64,000 nucleotides of DNA. Origin: Psychromonas ossibalaenae ATCC BAA-1528. Its GTDB lineage: Bacteria > Pseudomonadota > Gammaproteobacteria > Enterobacterales > Psychromonadaceae. Shown here piece by piece: positions 1 through 43,283 of this stretch; position 1 is the stretch's first letter; every line of letters starts with the position of its first letter. The stretch covers positions 1-64,000 of the forward strand of contig NZ_KB906986.1 of the NCBI RefSeq assembly GCF_000381745.1, given 5' to 3'. Made by a program: the position numbers and the translations under genes. The notes under the pieces were generated by a model. The model was not told the origin of the DNA, did no database searches, and worked only from the letters and a program-made list of their open reading frames with translations.

Positions 1-281
1 CACTTTATAAAGTCTACCCGCCGGAAGAAGCGCGAAGAATACTTAACAAACTGGAATTTCATTACACTCCGAAGCATGCCAGCTGGCTGAATATGGCGGA
101 AATAGAGATTGGAGTTATGAGTAAACAGTGTCTGGACAGGCGCATACCGGACATGGATACATTAAAACGGGAGTTATCCGCTTGGGCGCTTAAACGCAAT
201 GAGAAAAAAGAAACGATAAACTGGATGTTCGATGTAGATGCAGCACGTTCAAAACTAACAAAGCGTACGGCAAACTTATAA
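1..281 (+). mobile_element. IS630-family transposase, C-terminal end (cut by window edge)
   Basis: The open frame already runs at the left edge (first full codon at base 3) and ends at 281. The visible 92 residues contain YTPKHASWLNMAEIE, the region holding the last acidic residue of the DDE catalytic triad in IS630-type transposases, followed by a basic tail (RSKLTKRTANL). Only the C-terminal part is present, so whether the gene is intact cannot be judged. IS630 elements insert at TA and duplicate it, which matters because the small repeats elsewhere in this window are also flanked by TA. No clear right-hand inverted repeat was identified downstream. Confidence 0.85.
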
Positions 282-473
282 AGTCAACTAATAAAAATTA
301 ATTGGAAAAGGCACTAGTTACATCAATTAATGCCTTGCTAGTATTGGTTTTTCCTGCGCCTAAAACTGACCATTTAGTTAATCAGTTTGGTATAACTATC
401 AGGGTGGTGAAGTGTATGTATCCCCCCTGCTCCGAGTGAAAATTCAAACTCGCGGCAGCCCCGTCTATGCATT

Positions 474-490
474 CCCACGCAGAGCATGGG
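474..490. repeat. REP-like hairpin
   Basis: CCCACGC-AGA-GCATGGG forms a 7-bp stem (one G-T pair) with a 3-base loop, preceded by GCATT. This arrangement resembles the short REP-type palindromes scattered through many proteobacterial genomes. It lies in the gap between the IS630 end and the acyltransferase stop codon, and could also help end transcription of the acyltransferase on the minus strand, though no T-run follows. Confidence 0.4.
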
Positions 491-532
491 CTCATACGTA
501 GGGGTGAAGTATTCTGTGTAGGAACGAGATGT

Positions 533-1561
533 TTATCTGAAAAGGAATTTTCGCAGAGGTGTTTTTTCAACTAATTTAACAAAGGCTAGTGAACAGATGA
601 CGGTGCCGAAGAATAACACCCCGTCTCTTGTTAATCCGCTTACTGCAGACATTCCGGCAATATTATAAAAAACAATCGCAATAGACAGGTGACAGACATA
701 GATCGGCAGGATGCTTTTACTTAACCAGTAAGTTAGCGGATGATCACCCAGCAGAGGTTTTGCTAATAACAATAAAAACAGACCGCTTGCCCATAACGGC
801 GTAAACAGTAAAAAATCATGACTGGAAAATGCCACCTCCTTAGTAAATAACCAGTAGGCTTCAGCAAAATGTCCAAGCAGGCCTGCAGACAACATCAGTA
901 AAGCAGACTGAGCGGATAATCTAAATTCAAATCTTCTAATTTCAAAACCAACAGCCACCATCAGTAAACTGAAAAACGGCCCGTTACGCGTTAAAAAGGG
1001 AGAGCCGATTTCAGTAACTGATGCGTAGCTGCCGGCTAATACACCATATATATACAATAAGACGGCTGCGGGTAATAACAGTTTCAGCAGCTTAAAGTGA
1101 ACAAATAAACCTGTCATAACAACAGCAATGATCAGTGCCGGTAAAAACCATAAATGCACTAAACCGCCCTCTAAAAATGAATTAAGCGGTGTTTTTAATA
1201 AAAAGCTCCAGTAAGCCTGGCGTTCACCAAGATAACCCAGCTCCATCACGTTTTTTAAATTAGCAGGCAGTATCAGGCATATTGCACTCCACACCAGCCA
1301 TACTTTTAACAACGGTGCATTATAACGACGCATCACGGCCAGTGGTGAGCCCATCAGCTTCGGCTGGATTAAAAAACCCGCTAATAAAAAGAAAAACGGC
1401 ACGGCAAAACGGCTGAGCTGATTAACAATATCAGCCAGCCAGGCATGGCCGTTTATAATCGGTGCATCAATAAATAATCGCGTATGGATAGCAATAACGG
1501 CAGCCATGGCAATAACACGCATAAACTCGAGACTGGCAATTCTGGCAGGATAGGTTTTCAT
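533..1561 (-). CDS. Acyltransferase 3 family inner-membrane protein
   Basis: The product (342 residues) begins with the family hallmark ASLEFMRVIAMAAVIAIHTR: the R and H near the first membrane helix are the conserved pair of acyltransferase-3 proteins (OafA/WecH type). About ten hydrophobic segments follow. These enzymes move acyl groups across or at the inner membrane onto sugars, lipids or peptidoglycan; the substrate here cannot be told. An upstream TTG at 1570 is in frame, but the ATG at 1561 is the better start. No polysaccharide genes are adjacent, so it appears to stand alone. Confidence 0.85.
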   Translation of the reverse strand: MKTYPARIASLEFMRVIAMAAVIAIHTRLFIDAPIINGHAWLADIVNQLSRFAVPFFFLLAGFLIQPKLMGSPLAVMRRYNAPLLKVWLVWSAICLILPANLKNVMELGYLGERQAYWSFLLKTPLNSFLEGGLVHLWFLPALIIAVVMTGLFVHFKLLKLLLPAAVLLYIYGVLAGSYASVTEIGSPFLTRNGPFFSLLMVAVGFEIRRFEFRLSAQSALLMLSAGLLGHFAEAYWLFTKEVAFSSHDFLLFTPLWASGLFLLLLAKPLLGDHPLTYWLSKSILPIYVCHLSIAIVFYNIAGMSAVSGLTRDGVLFFGTVICSLAFVKLVEKTPLRKFLFR

Positions 1562-3951: not shown

Positions 3952-5139
3952 ATGTCTACTGAAATTATCATGTTAGGAATGGCCGCATTAGTTGTGGTCG
4001 GAATTTTACTGCATCACCCGTCAAGAACTTTCGGCATCCCTTCTCTGCTTATCTTTATGGGTGTAGGACTCGCGCTGGGTAACGGCGAGTTTAATTTTGT
4101 TTATGATAATCTCAATAAAACAGCCTGGGTCGGCGGACTGGCACTCAATATTATTGTATTTGTCGGCGGCCTGAACACCTGCAATGATAAGATTAAAGCG
4201 GCCTTTAAAGAAGGCGGTGTGCTTGCTTCCTTTGGAGTGATTTTTACTACCCTGTTTTTTGCACTGATTATTTACCAGCTGCTCGATTTTAATTTTATTA
4301 CCTGTCTGCTGTTTGCCGCCGTTGTTTCCTCTACCGATGCGGCCGCCGTATTTTCAATACTTGAATCTAAAAAGCTCAAGCTCAAAGAGCAGACCGACAG
4401 CGTATTAGAATTTGAATCGGCAACCAATGATCCGGTCGCCATGCTGCTGGTAATATTCCTGACAGAAATGGCTTTATCTTCAACGCAGACAATACCTGCA
4501 CATGACATTGCACTAAGTTTAATAACGCAGATCGGCGTGGCTGTGGTGATTGGTCTTGTGGTTGGAAAAATCACCGTCTGGCTGCTCAATAAAATTCAGC
4601 TCTCTGAATACGGACTGATCCCGGTTTTTATTCTTGCCTGTTTTATTATTTCAACCTACGGCGCAGAGATGCTCGGCGGCAATATACTGCTAGCCTCTTA
4701 TATCTCAGGTGTGATGATCGGCAACGGCATCAAACGCGGCCAGCAGGTTAACAAACACTTTTTCAATAGTCTTTCCTGGCTGGCGCAGGCACTGATGTTT
4801 ATCGTGTTAGGTCTGCAGATTTTCCCGCAGTCATTAATCACTATTTTCTGGGCTTCGGTATTACCCGCACTGCTGCTGATATTTGCCGCCAGACCTTTAG
4901 CGGTGCAGATCTGCTACCTGCCCTTTATCAAATCCAGCTGGCGAAAACGTCTGTTTATCTCTTTAATCGGATTAAAAGGCGCGACACCTATTGTATTTGC
5001 ACTTATTCCAGCCGCAGCCGGCGTACCGGGTGCAATCGATATTCTGCACATGGTTTTCTTTATTGTTCTGTTTTCGGTTGTATTACAAGGCGGTGCAATT
5101 GCCCCGTTAGCCAACCGTCTGCGCTTAAATGATGGTTAA
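3952..5139 (+). CDS. CPA1-family cation/proton antiporter (NhaP2-like, no C-terminal RCK region)
   Basis: A 395-residue protein with about 12 membrane helices. The motifs SSTDAAAVFSIL and ESATNDPVAMLL are the conserved ion-binding segments of CPA1 exchangers, and the sequence resembles NhaP2/CvrA-type K+/H+ antiporters. E. coli NhaP2 is near 580 residues because of cytoplasmic regulatory domains; those are absent here, as the protein stops right after the last helix. The start is set at ATG 3952 because GGAG lies 6 bases before it; an in-frame TTG at 3940 overlaps that ribosome site. It probably extrudes K+ or Na+ for pH and ion balance. Confidence 0.88.
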   Translation: MSTEIIMLGMAALVVVGILLHHPSRTFGIPSLLIFMGVGLALGNGEFNFVYDNLNKTAWVGGLALNIIVFVGGLNTCNDKIKAAFKEGGVLASFGVIFTTLFFALIIYQLLDFNFITCLLFAAVVSSTDAAAVFSILESKKLKLKEQTDSVLEFESATNDPVAMLLVIFLTEMALSSTQTIPAHDIALSLITQIGVAVVIGLVVGKITVWLLNKIQLSEYGLIPVFILACFIISTYGAEMLGGNILLASYISGVMIGNGIKRGQQVNKHFFNSLSWLAQALMFIVLGLQIFPQSLITIFWASVLPALLLIFAARPLAVQICYLPFIKSSWRKRLFISLIGLKGATPIVFALIPAAAGVPGAIDILHMVFFIVLFSVVLQGGAIAPLANRLRLNDG

Positions 5140-35661: not shown

Positions 35662-36294
35662 ATGAACAAGAAACTACATATAGCAGCAGGTTTAGCATTG
35701 TCATTTGCTATTAGTAACAGCCAGGCAATTGTTATCACAGATATGGTGGGTGACGTTGATTGTTTAGGCGGCGCGATTGTCTGCGGAGCAACCTCATTTA
35801 CTGGTTCTTTTGACAACAGGTCTCCAGCAGAACTTGCAGCCACTGACGGCGCTCAGCATACTGACTATGCGACCGGACCGTATGGCACTTGGTTAGGTAA
35901 TCCGACTTTTAACCACAGCTATTCAGTTTTCAGCAGCATTGCCTCAGCAACATGGGAAGTTGGTGTCGGTGGTGTACAAAGCCAAAACGATAGACTGTAT
36001 TTAGACGGAGCACTGTTTGCAAGCGGCGCGCAGATCCCTGAACAAGGCTCTAATGGTTATGGTATTTTAAGTTACGCGCTGACCGGCGCTTCACTGATAG
36101 CTTTGCTTGACGGCAACGGCTCATTTAGATTCAATCTCAATTCTAATGACAGTGGTGAGCCTGTGGTATTTGACTACAGCAAACTCACCATTACAGGTAC
36201 TCTTCGTGACGGTGAAGTACCAGAGCCTGCGGCGGCTGCACTTTTAGCCTTAGGTTTATTAGGCTTTGCTTTAACAAGACGCAGAAGAACTTAA
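35662..36294 (+). CDS. PEP-CTERM sorting-signal protein
   Basis: A 210-residue secreted protein: signal peptide (MNKKLHIAAGLALSFAISNSQA), a Gly/Ser/Asn-rich beta-type body, and the C-terminal tripartite signal VPEPAAAALLALGLLG + FALTRRRR. The signal directs cleavage and anchoring by an exosortase (EpsH family), usually in strains making exopolysaccharide. No exosortase is in this window, so the enzyme must be elsewhere. AGGAG lies 9 bases upstream of ATG 35662, and a sigma-54 promoter precedes it. The body resembles no domain I can name. Confidence 0.9.
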   Translation: MNKKLHIAAGLALSFAISNSQAIVITDMVGDVDCLGGAIVCGATSFTGSFDNRSPAELAATDGAQHTDYATGPYGTWLGNPTFNHSYSVFSSIASATWEVGVGGVQSQNDRLYLDGALFASGAQIPEQGSNGYGILSYALTGASLIALLDGNGSFRFNLNSNDSGEPVVFDYSKLTITGTLRDGEVPEPAAAALLALGLLGFALTRRRRT

Positions 36295-36497: not shown

Positions 36498-37442
36498 ATG
36501 TTAGCGAACACGACTCTTAAATCTGCTTACAAAATTTTGGCTGCGGCAGCCCTGCTTCTTTCACCATCATTATCGGCACTGGACTTAAATAATGCCGTAA
36601 AAGGACAGGTCTTTGAGGTTAAATTAAAAGACTTATTACCTACCCAGCCTTCCGTCGGCTTTGATCAGATATACTATAAACTAGGCCGCTTTGAGCAGGA
36701 TCTTAAAAAACAGCTCGATGAAATTTGTGAAACAAACGGTCAAAAAGGAATTAAACAGTTCAATATCAATTCACAGGCGGATCTGCCCGGCTCTTTTAAA
36801 TGCAGAAAACCTGTCGGCAGCCGTATAGACGAAATGAAAACCGTTGTGATCGCACCGGATAATCATTTGTATTTAACAGACGGGCATCACACCTTAAATA
36901 CTTTCTGGCATATGCCCGGAGGCGGTCAAAATTTTGCACTACATGTGCTGATTAAAAATGATTATCGAAACCTTAACTCGATGGATAGTTTCTGGCAGGC
37001 GATGAAAACAGATAAAAATATCTGGTTATTTGACAGCGAAAACAAACCGCTAGATTTTTCTGAACTGCCGCAGTCATTAGGTTTAATAAACTTCTCCGAT
37101 GATGTCTATCGTTCGATGATGTATTTCACCCGCGACACAGCATGGGAAAAACCTAAACATCCTATCCCGTTTTTAGAGTTTTACTGGGGGCAGAGTTTAC
37201 GCAGTAATATTAACTTAAGCAGTTATGACTTGTTGTCCATGCAGGGTTATCTGAAAGCGGTTAAGGACAGCAGTGCCACCTTATTATCCCTTAATGATAC
37301 AAATTTATCCGGCTCCGGCAGATCTGTGCAGCAGATGGGCCTGCTTGAGAAATTTAATCACAAAGCATTTGATAAATTAAGCAGCAGAAAGAGTAAATTA
37401 AACTATATGCTGGTTTATAAAACGGCATTAAACACAAAATAG
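36498..37442 (+). CDS. Exported ParB-like (ParBc_2) protein
   Basis: A 314-residue protein with a signal peptide (ILAAAALLLSPSLSALD). The following region (GQVFEVKLKDLLPTQPSVGFDQIYYKLGRF ... NHLYLTDGHHTLNTFWHM) matches the ParB-like putative nuclease family (ParBc_2), where the DGHH motif is the conserved core. Export sets it apart from cytoplasmic ParB partition proteins, so it is unlikely to bind chromosomal DNA; related families use this fold for nucleotide-dependent or kinase-like chemistry. The function is unknown. It is monocistronic. Confidence 0.75.
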   Translation: MLANTTLKSAYKILAAAALLLSPSLSALDLNNAVKGQVFEVKLKDLLPTQPSVGFDQIYYKLGRFEQDLKKQLDEICETNGQKGIKQFNINSQADLPGSFKCRKPVGSRIDEMKTVVIAPDNHLYLTDGHHTLNTFWHMPGGGQNFALHVLIKNDYRNLNSMDSFWQAMKTDKNIWLFDSENKPLDFSELPQSLGLINFSDDVYRSMMYFTRDTAWEKPKHPIPFLEFYWGQSLRSNINLSSYDLLSMQGYLKAVKDSSATLLSLNDTNLSGSGRSVQQMGLLEKFNHKAFDKLSSRKSKLNYMLVYKTALNTK

Positions 37443-37458
37443 TTATACGCAGAGCTTA

Positions 37459-38496
37459 TTACTGCGACGGATCATATTCGATGCCGTATTTCTTTAATAA
37501 AATCAAGTATTCAGGCGTTTTCTTAAAATCACTCAGAGCTTCAGCAAAGCGCTGTGCCAGCGCTTCTCCGGCACGAGCTTTTGAAAATGCAATATACTGC
37601 GAAATACCCGGTTGATAAGGTTTCAGATAAGCAATTTTATTTGCTATTCCCTGTCTATGCGCAAAGTAACGGATCCTGTCGATATGACCTATTCCGATAT
37701 CAAATCGACCGGACAGCAGCCTCTTTAACAATATTACCTCATCTTTAGCGCCTTCATCTTTCTGCAGCCAGTCTGCCCGATCAAAATATTCCCCATAGCT
37801 GTAACCGCTTATTCCCCCTATCCTGAATCTGGTGCAGATCGCCGTCATACTGAAACCTGTGCTTTGCACTTTTTAAAACAAAAAATCCGTTATTTACTAC
37901 GCTCAAAATATTCCTATTATCAAAAATAGCAAACTCTTCGCGTTGTGCTGTTTTTCCGATATATACCCGTTATCATTCAAGATGCAAAAATCAGCAAGTC
38001 GTGAGGTAAACAGGTTCTAGGCGTGAAGGTGAAGATCTAACGGGTTAAATCGAGACTTCGCAACAACGAATATGTTTGCCTAACGGCTTGCCCCGTGGGT
38101 CGCGAGCTCGAAAACCAATACTGCGTTACAACATTCGATAAGGACTAGCCATTGTCATCATGTTGCGCCTTGCCTTAGTGTCCGAGCTCGCGACTGATAA
38201 ATGCATTTTGATTGGTAACGGGTATAGGTAATCGCATCCGCCTCACCATTTTTCATCATACGTATCGCTCTTTTCCAGGGCACACTGATAAATTCAATCT
38301 TTATTTTTAATATACCCGCTATCGTGTAAATAATATCAATATGAAGCCCGGTCATCTTATTGTCGGAAGTTATGATTTCTTGCGGAGGATTACTCCTGGC
38401 GGATCTAACGATCAGTAACGATTCCTGCTTTTCGGCATATACTCTCTGACCTAGCGCCAGCACAATCAATATGAAGGTAATGAAAATATTTTTCAT
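37459..38496 (-). pseudogene. Periplasmic solute-binding protein, disrupted by a MITE and a frameshift
   Basis: The 5' part (38496 downward) encodes a signal peptide (MKNIFITFILIVLALGQRVYA) and the first lobe (GLHIDIIYTIAGILKIKIEFISVPWKRAIRMMKNGEADAIT). The MITE at 37964-38224 interrupts it there. Deleting the element plus one TA joins ...GEADAITY to IGKTAQREEFAIFDNRN in frame, continuing to about DGDLHQI. Near 37821-37830 the frame then shifts by one base into RIGGISGYSYGEYFDRADWLQKDEG, which runs to the normal end (LLKKYGIEYDPSQ). So two independent lesions exist, and the gene is dead. Confidence 0.9.
37964..38224. repeat. MITE-like repeat, copy 2 (261 bp), inside a gene
   Basis: Ends TACCCGTTATCATTCAAG and TTTTGATTGGTAACGGGTA, with TA on both sides (37962-37963 and 38225-38226). 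Removing the element and one TA restores the interrupted reading frame, so these ends and the 2-bp duplication are well supported. It lacks about 64 internal bases present in copy 1. Confidence 0.93.
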
Positions 38497-38721
38497 ATAA
38501 CCTCCCTATGTACCAATAATATAAGCCGTCAGCGGTAAAACGCCGATATCTGTGCACAAGTATGGATATACGGCTGTGTTTTTACCACATTAAAACGGCC
38601 GTTATTTCCATATAAAACGTATTCGTCACCTGAAAACAGACTAAAAAAACGGGAAAGAAAAAGATACAAACACTAAGGGGAACTGCCCGTTTTACCTTTG
38701 ATAAAAAGTTACTGCTTTGCT

Positions 38722-40380
38722 TTAATGGGAGTAAATACAATTCTTACCGCTTTTTTTAGCCTTATATAAGGCTTTATCTGCTTTCTCAAGCAGCTCCGCA
38801 CTGTTTAAGTTTTCCTGATAACAGCCGCCGGCAATACCAATGCTCATGGTAACGTGCGCAGCAGCGCTGTTTCCCTCATGCGTTATGTTTAAAGCGTTAA
38901 CTTTAGCAAGCACCTCCGCCGCCATTTTCTGCGCCCCATCAGGTGTCGTATTAGGTAAAATAAACAGAAATTCTTCACCGCCGTAGCGGGCAATAAAATC
39001 AGTAGAGCGCCTTTTACTGTGCAATAGTGCGGCGCTTACCTGTTTCAGACAATCATCTCCAGCTAAATGGCCGTAAATATCGTTGTACCTTTTAAAATAG
39101 TCAATATCCATTATCAACACCGCCAGAGGTCCTTGGTTTCTCGCAGCAGTCTGTAATTCCTGCTCCAGCCTCTGATCTAAAGCACGCCGGTTATACAAGC
39201 CCGTTAGTCCGTCAGTTAAAGAGAGATCCCGTAATATCTGCTTCTGCTCTTCGATTTCGGCGGCAAAGATATTAAATGCTTTCGCCATATCGGAAATTTC
39301 GTCGTTACCGCTGACATCGAATTCGATCTTATCACCTTTAAGCCGCGCAATAACCTGCCTGTTAAGTAAAACAACACGTTCAACAAAACGCCTTTTAATG
39401 AAATAAATAACAGAAAAAAGAACAAATAAAACAAATAACGAAACGACATTCATTAGTTTTGTTTCAGCGTCCGTCGCCTCAATTATCGCATTTGTATCGG
39501 CAACTACGGTCTCATTAATCTGATAAGACTTAAATTCGGCTACGCGGGAAAAATCATCAAGCAGATTTTTCAAAAAATGCTCCCGTCCAATAACACGCCC
39601 GTTAATACGAAGCTGCATAATTTTCAACTGCAGCAGGCCGTTTTCGGCAAACATCAGCTGACGCAGCTGGTCAGTTAAAGATTCAGCGCTTGTCCGGCTG
39701 GACAGCGGCAGCAAAAGAATATCTTTTTCGAGTAATGCTATTTTATTTTCAGCCTGACGAAAAACCTGCCTTACTTCCTGTAGTCTGAGCTTTATTAATG
39801 TTTTACTGGCTAAGGTTATCATCTCTGAATACGCAGACGTCCAGATTGTACCGGCTGAATTTCTATTTACTTGCGGTGATAAACTGAACATTTTTTCATG
39901 AAGTGTATACATGCTGCTTTGAGCTTCTATTATCTGCTCCTGTATAGTTAATTTATGCTGCACCAGCTGCTGTAAACTAAAAAATTCACTACTGATTACA
40001 TTCAGTTGAGTGCTCAAATAAACATTACTATCCTGTTCATTTATCTGCTTTTGAATACTCTGCACTTTATTTTCAATGCTTTGTTTTACAATCCGCAGCG
40101 TTACATCATTACCGGAAAAAGCCAGACGGCTGCTTAAATGCAGCAGCTCATTTATCTGGTTGTGCAGGTTCCTGGAGTAAGTGATCTCTGGAAAAGAGTC
40201 TTCCGTGATCTGTACTAAAATAGACTGAAAACTACCCAGGCGGTAATGTGATAAAGTCATCGCGCTTATAAATAAAAAAACAATGCTTATAAATGCGGTG
40301 CTGATAACAGCAGCAAGAGAGCATCGACGCCCGCGGGACGAGTGTGAAAGCTGCTGGGGTATTTTTTTTCTGCTGTTCAT
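38722..40380 (-). CDS. Membrane diguanylate cyclase with HAMP-like linker
   Basis: A 552-residue protein with two membrane helices (about 22-45 and 312-332) around a helical periplasmic region, a HAMP-like linker (FDVSGNDEISDMAKAFNIFAAEIEEQ) and a GGDEF domain starting at LTDGLTGLYNRRALD. The active site is GGEEF (about residue 465), a functional variant, with an intact I-site RSTD five residues before. Its ATG overlaps the stop of the upstream nucleotidase-like gene by four bases, so the two are co-translated; the periplasmic nucleotidase-like protein is a likely input to this cyclase. Confidence 0.93.
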   Translation of the reverse strand: MNSRKKIPQQLSHSSRGRRCSLAAVISTAFISIVFLFISAMTLSHYRLGSFQSILVQITEDSFPEITYSRNLHNQINELLHLSSRLAFSGNDVTLRIVKQSIENKVQSIQKQINEQDSNVYLSTQLNVISSEFFSLQQLVQHKLTIQEQIIEAQSSMYTLHEKMFSLSPQVNRNSAGTIWTSAYSEMITLASKTLIKLRLQEVRQVFRQAENKIALLEKDILLLPLSSRTSAESLTDQLRQLMFAENGLLQLKIMQLRINGRVIGREHFLKNLLDDFSRVAEFKSYQINETVVADTNAIIEATDAETKLMNVVSLFVLFVLFSVIYFIKRRFVERVVLLNRQVIARLKGDKIEFDVSGNDEISDMAKAFNIFAAEIEEQKQILRDLSLTDGLTGLYNRRALDQRLEQELQTAARNQGPLAVLIMDIDYFKRYNDIYGHLAGDDCLKQVSAALLHSKRRSTDFIARYGGEEFLFILPNTTPDGAQKMAAEVLAKVNALNITHEGNSAAAHVTMSIGIAGGCYQENLNSAELLEKADKALYKAKKSGKNCIYSH

Positions 40381-41882
40381 GGCTGACCCGCAGGTTGTTT
40401 AGCAATATCTAACATTCTAGATTCTATTTTAGGCGAAATACTGTTTGTTAAACGTAGTTCGTTAATCAGTATATCTGACAGCAGTTTTGACATCTGCTGA
40501 TTATAGGTAAGCGGTACATTATGTTTAAACCGCTGATAACCATCACCGCCATTGGCAAGGTAAGATGAAGTCGCCAGCTTATAGCGCTTTAACGGCAGCA
40601 GCGGGCTGTCACTAATCTCCACAGAAACAACGCGGTCACCAGCTGCTGCTTGAGAATTGTAAACAACTTTCATACCCGAGATCTGTGGGAAGCGGCCTTT
40701 GGCATTTTTTATTTGTGAAAAACCATTTTCTAATACCGCTATTAACTGCATTCCTGTCACTTCTAATAAAACCACGGTATCACGGTAAGGAAGCATTTTA
40801 ACAATATCTCTTCTACTAATTTGAGTGTTTTTAGGATAAAAACTGTTGCCTCGAACTGCGCCGCCGTTAAGCAGTGCAATATCAGCCCCGCTGTGCTTTT
40901 TCATTAAATCGGTTACTAAATTACCTAAGGCATTTTCGGTTGTTCGTAAACTTAGCGACGACGTATCTATATCTGTACTGGTGACGCCGATTATTTCATC
41001 CAGCAGTAAATTTAAACGGCTGCTGTAATTGTCTATCTGACGCTGCACAATAGAGTTTTTAGGGTACGACAAAAGTTTCTCTGCCTGCCACTGCACCGTT
41101 AGTGTCTGCACTTGTTTTGTATGCCAGCTCAGTTCAATAACTGCCGCCTGAGAAGTTTCAGGCAAAAATACCTGTTTAGGATGCTCCTGCACCTTTTCAG
41201 CAGTCAACAGACCGGTTTCACTATCATTTCGTAACACCAGATCTACCGTACCATTTTTTAAATAATCAACGCAGTTAAGCTCAGTGCCTCGATAATGCAT
41301 GATAATAAGATCTGCTCCCAGAGCGCGTAATTTTTTCGCCTTGGCGGCAATTATAAAATTCGGATCTTTTACACTGCTGCGTGTTAGGTTATAGGTTTCA
41401 AGTACCTCCTCATCCATTAGCGATATAAAACCCAGTTTATATTTACCCTGCTGAATCATTACTGAATCCAGTACTCCATCAAGGTTCTGCTGTGTAGATA
41501 TTTGTGCAGTATTACTCTGCACAATAGGAAAAGCAGCCTCATAGGTACGCAGTGACAACTCATCTTCAGAAAAAGCGAAATCTCCATTGCTGGCAGCCAT
41601 TACGTCAGGCTCTATGCTGTTCAGCAGATCAATAATATGAGTGCCGTGGTCAAAGGAGGATAAGATACTTGGAAAAAGGCTGTTACCGCCAAAAACAAAA
41701 AAAGTTGGAATCGGCTTTGCTCTATGAATTTCTAATAGCGATGCTAACTCCGCGTAACCGCCTTTATCGCGGCTCTCTATTTCAGTGAGCCCGGCAGTAA
41801 ATATCAGATTAGCTTTTTCAGCAGCCGCATAAGCATTATTTATGCACAGCAAAGCGATAATTAGAAAAATAATTTTGAGCAT
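40377..41882 (-). CDS. Exported 5'-nucleotidase-like protein lacking metal ligands
   Basis: A 501-residue protein with a signal peptide (MLKIIFLIIALLCINNAYA). The overall order is that of UshA/CpdB-type nucleotidases: a metallophosphatase half and a 5'-nucleotidase C-terminal half (NALGNLVTDLMKKHSGADIALLNGGAVRG; YLANGGDGYQRF) that is well kept. In the first half the catalytic motifs are gone: the DxH strand reads IFTAGLTEIESR, the GDxxQG loop reads FGGNSLFPS, GNHEFD reads SNGDFAF, and GHSH reads RNDSE. It is therefore probably not a phosphatase but may bind nucleotides. The four-base overlap with a cyclase gene suggests a periplasmic sensing partner. Confidence 0.83.
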   Translation of the reverse strand: MLKIIFLIIALLCINNAYAAAEKANLIFTAGLTEIESRDKGGYAELASLLEIHRAKPIPTFFVFGGNSLFPSILSSFDHGTHIIDLLNSIEPDVMAASNGDFAFSEDELSLRTYEAAFPIVQSNTAQISTQQNLDGVLDSVMIQQGKYKLGFISLMDEEVLETYNLTRSSVKDPNFIIAAKAKKLRALGADLIIMHYRGTELNCVDYLKNGTVDLVLRNDSETGLLTAEKVQEHPKQVFLPETSQAAVIELSWHTKQVQTLTVQWQAEKLLSYPKNSIVQRQIDNYSSRLNLLLDEIIGVTSTDIDTSSLSLRTTENALGNLVTDLMKKHSGADIALLNGGAVRGNSFYPKNTQISRRDIVKMLPYRDTVVLLEVTGMQLIAVLENGFSQIKNAKGRFPQISGMKVVYNSQAAAGDRVVSVEISDSPLLPLKRYKLATSSYLANGGDGYQRFKHNVPLTYNQQMSKLLSDILINELRLTNSISPKIESRMLDIAKQPAGQP

Positions 41883-42137
41883 GATCGTTGACGCCGTTAT
41901 TGCCTGAGCTGCTTACCCTGTGTTTATTAGTCTGCAAAATGAACAGAATTAAAGACAAACAGCATACCCTGTTGAACAAAAATGACCATTTGATTAATCA
42001 TTTATCATTTGAATACAAGTAGAAGATCACTTAATAGGATCAGTATAGTCATGAAACGGCTAATTAAGGAGATTGCCACTGTCTGAAATACAGCCATTAG
42101 AGTCGGTCGGAGGGGGATCAGAAAACAGCGTCTGTTC

Positions 42138-42166
42138 CCTATCCGGCGCTTTATGCGCCGGATAGG
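42138..42166. terminator. Hairpin in the gap before the MITE
   Basis: CCTATCCGGCGC, loop TTTAT, GCGCCGGATAGG: a perfect 12-bp stem followed on the plus strand by ATTTTC. No plus-strand gene ends just before it, and the minus-strand permease ends beyond the MITE at 42471, so its owner is unclear; it may once have ended the ABC operon before the MITE arrived. Confidence 0.55.
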
Positions 42167-42202
42167 ATTTTCACTAGCGCGAAAATAGTGAACGGATATA
42201 TA

Positions 42203-42461
42203 TACCCATGTTACTTCAAGATGCAAAATCAGCAAGCCAAATTGTACTTAGATGCCAGGCATAAAATTGAAGTATAGTTGTTCTACATTGAGACTTTATA
42301 ACGACGCAGATGAGTGTTATTTGGCTTGCCCTGCGGGGGATCAGCTCAAAAACCAGTATCGCGTTACAGCATTCAATAAGGGATCACCATTACCCTCATG
42401 CTGTGCCTTATTCTGGTCTTCGAGCTGAGTCCTGATAAAGCACCTTGAGGTATCATGGGTA
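42203..42461. repeat. MITE-like repeat, copy 3 (259 bp, diverged)
   Basis: Ends TACCCATGTTACTTCAAG and GGTATCATGGGTA with TA on both sides. The internal order matches copies 1 and 2 (GATGCAAAATCAGCAAG, TTGAGACTT, GGCTTGCCCTGCGGG, CAGCTC, GAGCTGAGTCCTGATAAA) but about a quarter of positions differ, so it is a separate subfamily. It ends nine bases from the ABC permease stop codon. Confidence 0.85.
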
Positions 42462-42470
42462 TAGCTCCCC

Positions 42471-43283
42471 CTATTTTCTTAATAACAGGCTAACTATTAA
42501 ACACAGGCTGCCAAGCAGGTAAGCACCTAAGCAGGATAACCAGCCAACCTGCACAAACACCATTAAAGGCTGCTGTGCCGTCAGCAGCGCCATCGGCATT
42601 GAGCTGATGTCACGGATGAAATCGGCCAGACTTGTAAATGTAAAAACATAGGTACTAACTAGCTTAAGCGTATAAGCTCCCACTACAACCACCAGCAACG
42701 GGGAATTGCTGACCTGCGAAACAGCCAGAAGCAGACAAGCCAGCGGCAGCAGCGCTAAGCTGACCAGAATCATTTTTGCCATAAACATTAACCAGCTAAG
42801 TAATACCCCGAAAAATGAAACTTCTCCCAGCAGACTAATTAAATCCTGACCATTAGTTAATGAAATAAACCACAGTAACAGCTCCGCACTTAGTACCAGA
42901 AGCGAACAGATCAGCGGAATTAAAATCAATGCAAAACCCAGTTTAACGACATGGGTCTGCAGATCAGATACCGGCATACTGCGCCAGAACATCAGACTGC
43001 CCTCCTGACGTTCTTTACGGAATGTTTTAGCCAGATACATTATTGATAACAACAGAGAAACAGCACCAGCACCAAAAGCTATGACCCTGCTAAGTCCCTG
43101 CGCAAAGTCAGGCGCATCATTCCCCTGATAATTAAACTGCAGTGACATATTACTAATAGAGTCAGTATTTAGTACTATCGAGCCCAATATCAATAACCCG
43201 AAAACCAGTAAAAACAGCGGTAAACGTGTCACAATTTTATGTTCAAGCAGCTCTTTTTCAAGCATAAAAAAACTAGGATGCAT
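42471..43283 (-). CDS. ABC-2-type permease subunit
   Basis: A 270-residue membrane protein with six predicted helices in the ABC-2 arrangement (long first loop after LPLFLLVFGLLILGSIVL, then FGAGAVSLLLSIMYLAKTFRKERQEGSLMFWRSMPVS, the cytoplasmic coupling segment). Its start shares one base with the stop of the ATPase gene (TAATG), so it is the third member of the GntR-ATPase-permease operon. The likely role is export or envelope-stress protection as in YtrABC-type systems; the substrate is unknown. Confidence 0.87.
   Translation of the reverse strand: MHPSFFMLEKELLEHKIVTRLPLFLLVFGLLILGSIVLNTDSISNMSLQFNYQGNDAPDFAQGLSRVIAFGAGAVSLLLSIMYLAKTFRKERQEGSLMFWRSMPVSDLQTHVVKLGFALILIPLICSLLVLSAELLLWFISLTNGQDLISLLGEVSFFGVLLSWLMFMAKMILVSLALLPLACLLLAVSQVSNSPLLVVVVGAYTLKLVSTYVFTFTSLADFIRDISSMPMALLTAQQPLMVFVQVGWLSCLGAYLLGSLCLIVSLLLRK

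Follow-up and report, generated by a model that had tools for sequence, protein, structure and literature searches.

A secreted pseudo-nucleotidase gene conserved beside a diguanylate cyclase gene in Psychromonas ossibalaenae and related bacteria: a candidate two-protein sensor

A 64,000-nucleotide stretch of the Psychromonas ossibalaenae ATCC BAA-1528 genome (contig NZ_KB906986.1, positions 1 to 64,000; hereafter the window) encodes a secreted protein of the 5'-nucleotidase family that has lost its metal site, and the gene for this pseudo-nucleotidase overlaps that of a membrane diguanylate cyclase (DGC). The pair is real, conserved and, as far as the literature was searched, undescribed. It would follow a known principle, in which a periplasmic receptor steers a membrane enzyme of cyclic di-GMP (c-di-GMP) metabolism, with the novelty that a former enzyme serves as the receptor. 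The pair probably senses an extracellular cue, perhaps the nucleotides of dying cells. For many diguanylate cyclases no input signal has been described. The pair offers a concrete and testable class of DGC input, together with a partner gene that was present in every genome where the sensor was found. Should this reading be true, the pair would also show clearly how an enzyme can become a receptor.

The coordinates of both genes given in a preliminary description of the window were right, as was the 4-base overlap (ATGA) between them (Table 1). The 5_nucleotid_C domain was the sole Pfam match in the pseudo-nucleotidase (PF02872, E 5.4e-39, residues 298-453), no metallophosphatase domain was detected in it by Pfam at E<=0.1, and the two-domain fold of the 5'-nucleotidase (UshA/CD73) family is present in the protein. 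The DGC matched GGDEF (E 9.5e-51) and, under the cut-off, HAMP (21 of 25 bits). Orthologues of the window protein were found in Psychromonas aquimarina (82 percent identity) and in a Psychromonas metagenome-assembled genome (72 percent).

At E<=1e-40, a four-sequence profile of the pseudo-nucleotidase had matches in 18 of the 394 genomes sampled from the order, and the 5_nucleotid_C domain was found in 18 of the 18 members scanned, the sole other match being DUF3164 in one of them. A second profile, A2, built from 18 sequences, matched 52 of 246 genomes of one family (f7) at E<=1e-30; three of these (G267, G825 and G851, 130-147 bits) were dropped, leaving 49 members. The same profile matched 5 of 9 genomes in family f16 and 1 of 12 in family f10, and within the genus of the window 3 of 24 genomes, the window genome counted, hold a full-length copy. 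The resulting 58 loci (3+49+5+1) come from four families of one order and were read with their flanks. In a sample of 369 genomes of the class, nothing beyond the order scored above 192 bits. In a sample of 190 genomes of the phylum, matches came from 23 genomes outside the class, of which 19 scored 270-369 bits, and from one further genome of the same order (G099). Stretches were fetched for these 19 and for G099, but not for the other four of the 23 (G1003, G1013, G1059 and G1115). A 250-bit cut does not delimit the clade, given the 19 metal-bearing proteins of other classes that reach 270-369 bits against the family profile; the tree described below separates them.

The metal site is lost throughout the family. 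Alignment with nucleotidases of related genomes places G31, T33, N67, N99, G100, R198 and D220 of the window protein at the seven metal-ligand positions. Of these, N99 alone, which corresponds to the N of GNHE, is a kept ligand; for the histidine of the TH motif the alignment is ambiguous locally, with H196 two residues from the aligned position. Among the 58 family proteins, none of the seven ligands is left in 20, one in 37 and two in a single protein, and KRE replaces NHE in 42 of 58. Of 27 paralogues used as a yardstick, 25 keep 7/7 ligands, one keeps 6 and one keeps 5, their intact GNHE being partly by construction because they were chosen for a GN.E motif. Relatives that were not chosen by motif gave a similar picture, with seven ligands in 10 and six in 4 of 14 proteins from the class scan, and seven in 3, six in 17 and five in 2 of 22 proteins from the phylum scan. 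The absence of the metal motifs, which the preliminary description had claimed for the window protein, is thus confirmed there and extends to 58 of 58 relatives. Since the loss recurs in all 58 proteins and the nucleotide pocket is kept, a sequencing error or private decay of one gene is ruled out. The pseudo-nucleotidase is proposed, from its residues, to hydrolyse nothing any longer. The alternative, that it is still an enzyme, working through other residues or another metal site, and that its product or the depletion of its substrate informs the DGC, would fit the aspartate kept at the D position of DxH in 27 or more of the 58 proteins and the DxY variant already present in sister proteins; with no member keeping more than two of seven ligands, it is considered very improbable.

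The preliminary description had proposed a search for the same gene pair in other genomes, and this search found a secreted protein gene adjacent to a GGDEF gene in 57 of 58 loci. An automatic scan identified 53 loci in which the next gene downstream, on the same strand, encodes a GGDEF protein, and four more (L119, L127, L131 and L139) proved to be paired as well, a longest-ORF (open reading frame) rule having set the start too far upstream. Over the 53 automatic pairs the spacing ranges from -59 to +94, with overlap in 41 and an overlap of exactly 4 bases in 18. A frame-independent scan found a GGDEF domain in 56 of the 57 loci outside the window, the sole exception being L067, where no GGDEF domain was found at the locus. 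The partner gene there (4174-5043, minus strand, 289 amino acids) aligns with the DGC profile over positions 90-319 alone (E 4e-4) and, judged by eye, ends past the second membrane helix, as a sensor-like membrane half would. Searches of L182 by tblastn with sensor and GGDEF queries gave no GGDEF and no convincing sensor match (best E 0.48, elsewhere), so the sensor identity of this partner rests on the weak profile match. The partner at L068 is a larger and more distant GGDEF protein (645 amino acids, 156 bits). In the first 18 loci, flanking genes are common within some lineages and different between lineages, and the pair stays together. Chance or an assembly error as the origin of the pair is ruled out by its recurrence in many independent genomes.

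The sensor domain of the DGC largely shares the distribution of the pseudo-nucleotidase. A sensor profile of 16 sequences (A4) was searched against the order only. It matched 16 of 388 genomes of the order sample, all of them nucleotidase-positive; these 16 are the profile's own members, and the new information is that no other sampled genome has the sensor. Two nucleotidase-positive genomes, G112 and G166, gave no A4 match among the matches listed. In family f7, A4 matched 50 of 246 genomes and, after removal of a 26-bit fragment in G766, the same 49 genomes that are nucleotidase-positive, most of which are not in the profile. This matched occurrence, together with the adjacency in 57 of 58 loci across four families with varying neighbourhoods, argues against mere co-transcription without functional contact, a reading that is given almost no credence.

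A FastTree tree of 122 proteins recovered the 58 as a single clade (support 0.88) lying within the metal-bearing proteins, and joined them with the five nearest outgroup proteins at support 1.0. No GGDEF domain was found in the 20 fetched phylum stretches, some of which end at contig ends, or in the short flanks (about 1.5 kb a side) of 28 paralogue loci. With a single clade among metal-bearing proteins, and with no GGDEF domain near these outgroup proteins in the stretches covered, the metal site was most likely lost a single time, together with the gain of the DGC link. Metal-intact orthologues without a GGDEF link, which the preliminary description named as counter-evidence, do exist among the outgroup proteins, and none lies inside the 58-member clade. 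In G714, of the same class and outside the order, the gene of a nucleotidase bearing metal motifs (L074, 1468-2976, plus strand) follows a GGDEF-EAL gene (42-1292, plus strand) at a distance of 175 bases, an adjacency that looks separate from the pair. The window genome also carries a further nucleotidase paralogue, a 520-amino-acid minus-strand ORF (L002, G000:C47) with D-E for D-H in its first metal motif.

The C-terminal pocket is kept. In CD73, R354, N390, R395, F417, F500 and D506 are residues in contact with the ligand. At the positions aligned with these, the 58 proteins have Arg in 58, Asn in 58, Arg in 57 (one Lys), an aromatic residue in 58, an aromatic residue in 58 and Asp in 58; the 27 paralogues, by the same alignment-based correspondence, have Arg in 23, Asn in 22, Arg in 27, Phe in 27, Phe or Tyr in 27 and Asp in 27. 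Around the former metal site there are newly fixed residues, among them G65, G66, S68, P71, D78, G80, H82, D85 and N88, and this conservation pattern looks like a new job rather than decay. Alternatively, the pair may sense something beyond simple nucleotides and nucleosides, such as a nucleotide sugar, a dinucleotide like nicotinamide adenine dinucleotide (NAD) or a cyclic dinucleotide. Live members of the superfamily are named in NCBIfam for uridine diphosphate (UDP)-sugars, NAD and cyclic nucleotides, and CpdB of Escherichia coli is reported to have cyclic diadenylate phosphodiesterase activity (PMC4905662). The present results indicate no particular larger ligand, and such a ligand is regarded as improbable.

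On the membrane side, the cyclase half looks intact, with GGEEF and the RxxD inhibitory site (I-site) in 57 of 57 partners. The region between the two transmembrane helices (TM1 and TM2) was modelled by AlphaFold2 as seven helices in series (mean predicted local confidence, pLDDT, 85.7; predicted template-modelling score, pTM, 0.47). TorS_sensor_domain (PF21689) matched more of the sensors than any other Pfam family (3/16 at E<=1, best 5.5e-5), and an hhalign comparison with a profile of eight TorS sensors gave an alignment of 106 columns, beginning at the first residue of the TorS profile (E 3e-5, probability 73). When genomes were scanned with PF21689 at 1e-5, the paired sensors in G000, G053, G062 and G081 were missed. 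Compared with the sequences of solved structures, the sensor profile yielded chance-level matches only, and in a fold comparison of the whole DGC the match list was filled by the GGDEF domain, leaving no place in it for TorS and other helical sensors. The profile matches are suggestive of a TorS-like sensor as a family and are not proof of membership. For 56 pairs, L068 being excluded, pairwise distances in the N-terminal domain of the pseudo-nucleotidase correlated with those in the sensor at r 0.83, a value reached by none of 2000 partner shuffles. Partial correlations were 0.38 for N-domain and sensor, 0.26 for C-domain and sensor, 0.19 for N-domain and GGDEF, and 0.03 for C-domain and GGDEF. 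This weaker line of evidence suggests that the N-domain and the sensor co-vary.

The favoured explanation, held with moderate confidence, is a two-protein transmembrane sensor in which the pseudo-nucleotidase would act as co-receptor and, on binding of a nucleotide-like ligand, control the synthesis of c-di-GMP. A ligand of nucleotide or nucleoside type would bind the intact C-terminal pocket of the secreted protein. Live 5'-nucleotidases undergo domain rotation, and a comparable rearrangement would follow ligand binding here. The conserved N-terminal face of the pseudo-nucleotidase would dock on the TorS-like helical periplasmic domain of the DGC, the rotation would alter this docked face, and the HAMP-like linker would relay the switch to c-di-GMP synthesis. 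What the sequences show is the pairing of the genes, the lost metal ligands, the preserved pocket residues and the intact signatures of cyclase and I-site; the class of ligand, the physical contact, the sign of control and an output in biofilm formation or motility all belong to the proposed part of this model. In a broader and more tentative form, for which the chances are put a little short of even, an enzyme of the CD73/UshA fold would have been converted once into a non-catalytic receptor of extracellular nucleotides for a TorS-like DGC, its enzymatic domain motion being reused as the signal, and marine bacteria would read the nucleotides of lysed cells or the turnover of extracellular DNA in choosing between attachment and swimming.

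Several observations weigh against the co-receptor model. Conservation in the pseudo-nucleotidase is highest at the former metal region, residues 60-129, where the mean majority frequency is 0.77 as against 0.56 for the nucleotide domain (residues 300-459, n=58), and the functional site may lie there. The TorS likeness is open to question, as the window's own sensor has no TorS match, the next Pfam matches (AimR in 2/16, best 0.041; Rab_bind in 1/16, 7e-4) resemble helical noise of similar rank, and the hhalign match stands without a control comparison. Distance correlations share species history, which the shuffles and partial correlation remove incompletely. In G112 and G166, both positive for the nucleotidase, the partner is diverged or consists of the sensor alone, and in G940 a second copy (L184, 3182-4639, plus strand, 304 bits), whose metal motifs are absent by eye, is a solo paralogue with no DGC in the 6.2 kb fetched; it stands outside the 58 and outside the tree. 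The conservation at residues 60-129 and the tracking of the sensor by the N-domain, the closest of the cross-protein pairs, would suit a pseudo-nucleotidase that is a ligand-independent periplasmic partner, an inhibitor or scaffold of the DGC with a merely structural pocket. The six pocket residues, which in CD73 contact the ligand, are kept in 57-58 of 58 proteins after the loss of the metal site, at least as well as in the metal-intact paralogues, and a scaffold is not obviously in need of them; a ligand-independent role is judged unlikely, though it deserves some weight.

The closest working analogue of the pair is NspS-MbaA of Vibrio cholerae, in which a membrane enzyme of c-di-GMP metabolism is under the control of a soluble ligand-binding protein in the periplasm (PMC8967002). 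As expected of a system of that type, the secreted protein and the membrane enzyme are encoded side by side here. NspS, however, binds polyamines and is of the solute-binding kind, whereas the putative receptor here is a dead nucleotidase (PF02872 in 18/18), and MbaA has GGDEF and EAL domains, whereas the partner in the window has GGDEF without EAL. For TorS, TorT and trimethylamine N-oxide are given as the input (PMC8534201); TorT is a periplasmic protein with which TorS works. TorT-TorS resembles the present pair in its all-helical periplasmic sensor, with weak profile similarity, and input through TorT would be in keeping with a secreted partner here. Unlike the DGC, TorS is a histidine kinase, and TorT has a periplasmic-binding-protein fold and not a nucleotidase fold. 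The window genome holds a separate TorS-type protein (G000:C25). With UshA, CD73 and NadN the pseudo-nucleotidase shares the whole two-domain fold and the C-terminal pocket residues, but here the metal site is lost and the gene is paired with a DGC gene. In the tree, the clade lies closest to metal-bearing nucleotidases of other proteobacterial classes (L188-L206, mostly of the DxY variant), which differ in keeping 5-7 of 7 ligands and have no GGDEF domain in the fetched stretches.

The preliminary description knew of no described system of exactly this kind, and literature searches aimed at the pair and the idea, covering titles and the openings of abstracts, likewise found none. The nucleotide sensors in a 2022 review of c-di-GMP inputs include degenerate GGDEF, cyclic-nucleotide-binding and GAF domains, and the word nucleotidase is absent from its main text (PMC8846402). 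A Pseudoalteromonas biofilm proteome mentions nucleotidases, with no such pair in the relevant passages (PMC12153261). Membership of a defence system was ruled out for both window proteins, which gave 0 PADLOC hits.

Table 1. Features of the pseudo-nucleotidase and DGC genes in the window and of their products
Feature	Position	Strand	Basis or remark
Secreted pseudo-nucleotidase, 501 amino acids	40377..41882	-	ORF
Signal peptide of pseudo-nucleotidase	residues about 1-21		by eye
Dead metallophosphatase-like domain of pseudo-nucleotidase	residues about 22-275		
Linker helix, then 5_nucleotid_C domain, then C-terminal helix of pseudo-nucleotidase	domain at residues 298-453		
Membrane DGC, 552 amino acids	38722..40380	-	ORF
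TM1 and TM2 of DGC	residues about 28-50 and about 308-330		hydropathy scan
All-helical periplasmic domain of DGC	residues about 51-307		
HAMP-like segment of DGC	residues 340-378		
GGDEF domain of DGC, with GGEEF and RxxD I-site	residues 388-547		
ATGA start/stop overlap of both genes	40377..40380	-	suggests translational coupling
Sensor segment of profile A4 (periplasmic domain and parts of both membrane helices)	39421..40248	-	

Around the pair, promoter-like sites in 38300-42600 occur at chance level (9 found, 10.3 expected). A perfect 12-bp inverted repeat with a 5-base loop lies at 42138-42166, between genes of an ATP-binding cassette (ABC) transporter and the pseudo-nucleotidase gene. 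Downstream of the DGC gene, a gene for a family-3 solute-binding protein seems broken (37459-38496, minus strand); its N-terminal part lies at 38158-38496, with a match to SBP_bac_3, and another ORF at 37459-37869, in which Pfam gave no match, may be the remainder. No ORF of this kind was found at the corresponding place in P. aquimarina. Further along, 36498-37442 (plus strand) encodes a 314-amino-acid protein with a ParBc_2 domain (putative ParB-like nuclease, E 2.9e-38) and, by eye, a start resembling an export signal, and 35662-36294 (plus strand) encodes a 210-amino-acid protein whose C-terminus resembles, again by eye, a PEP-CTERM sorting tag.

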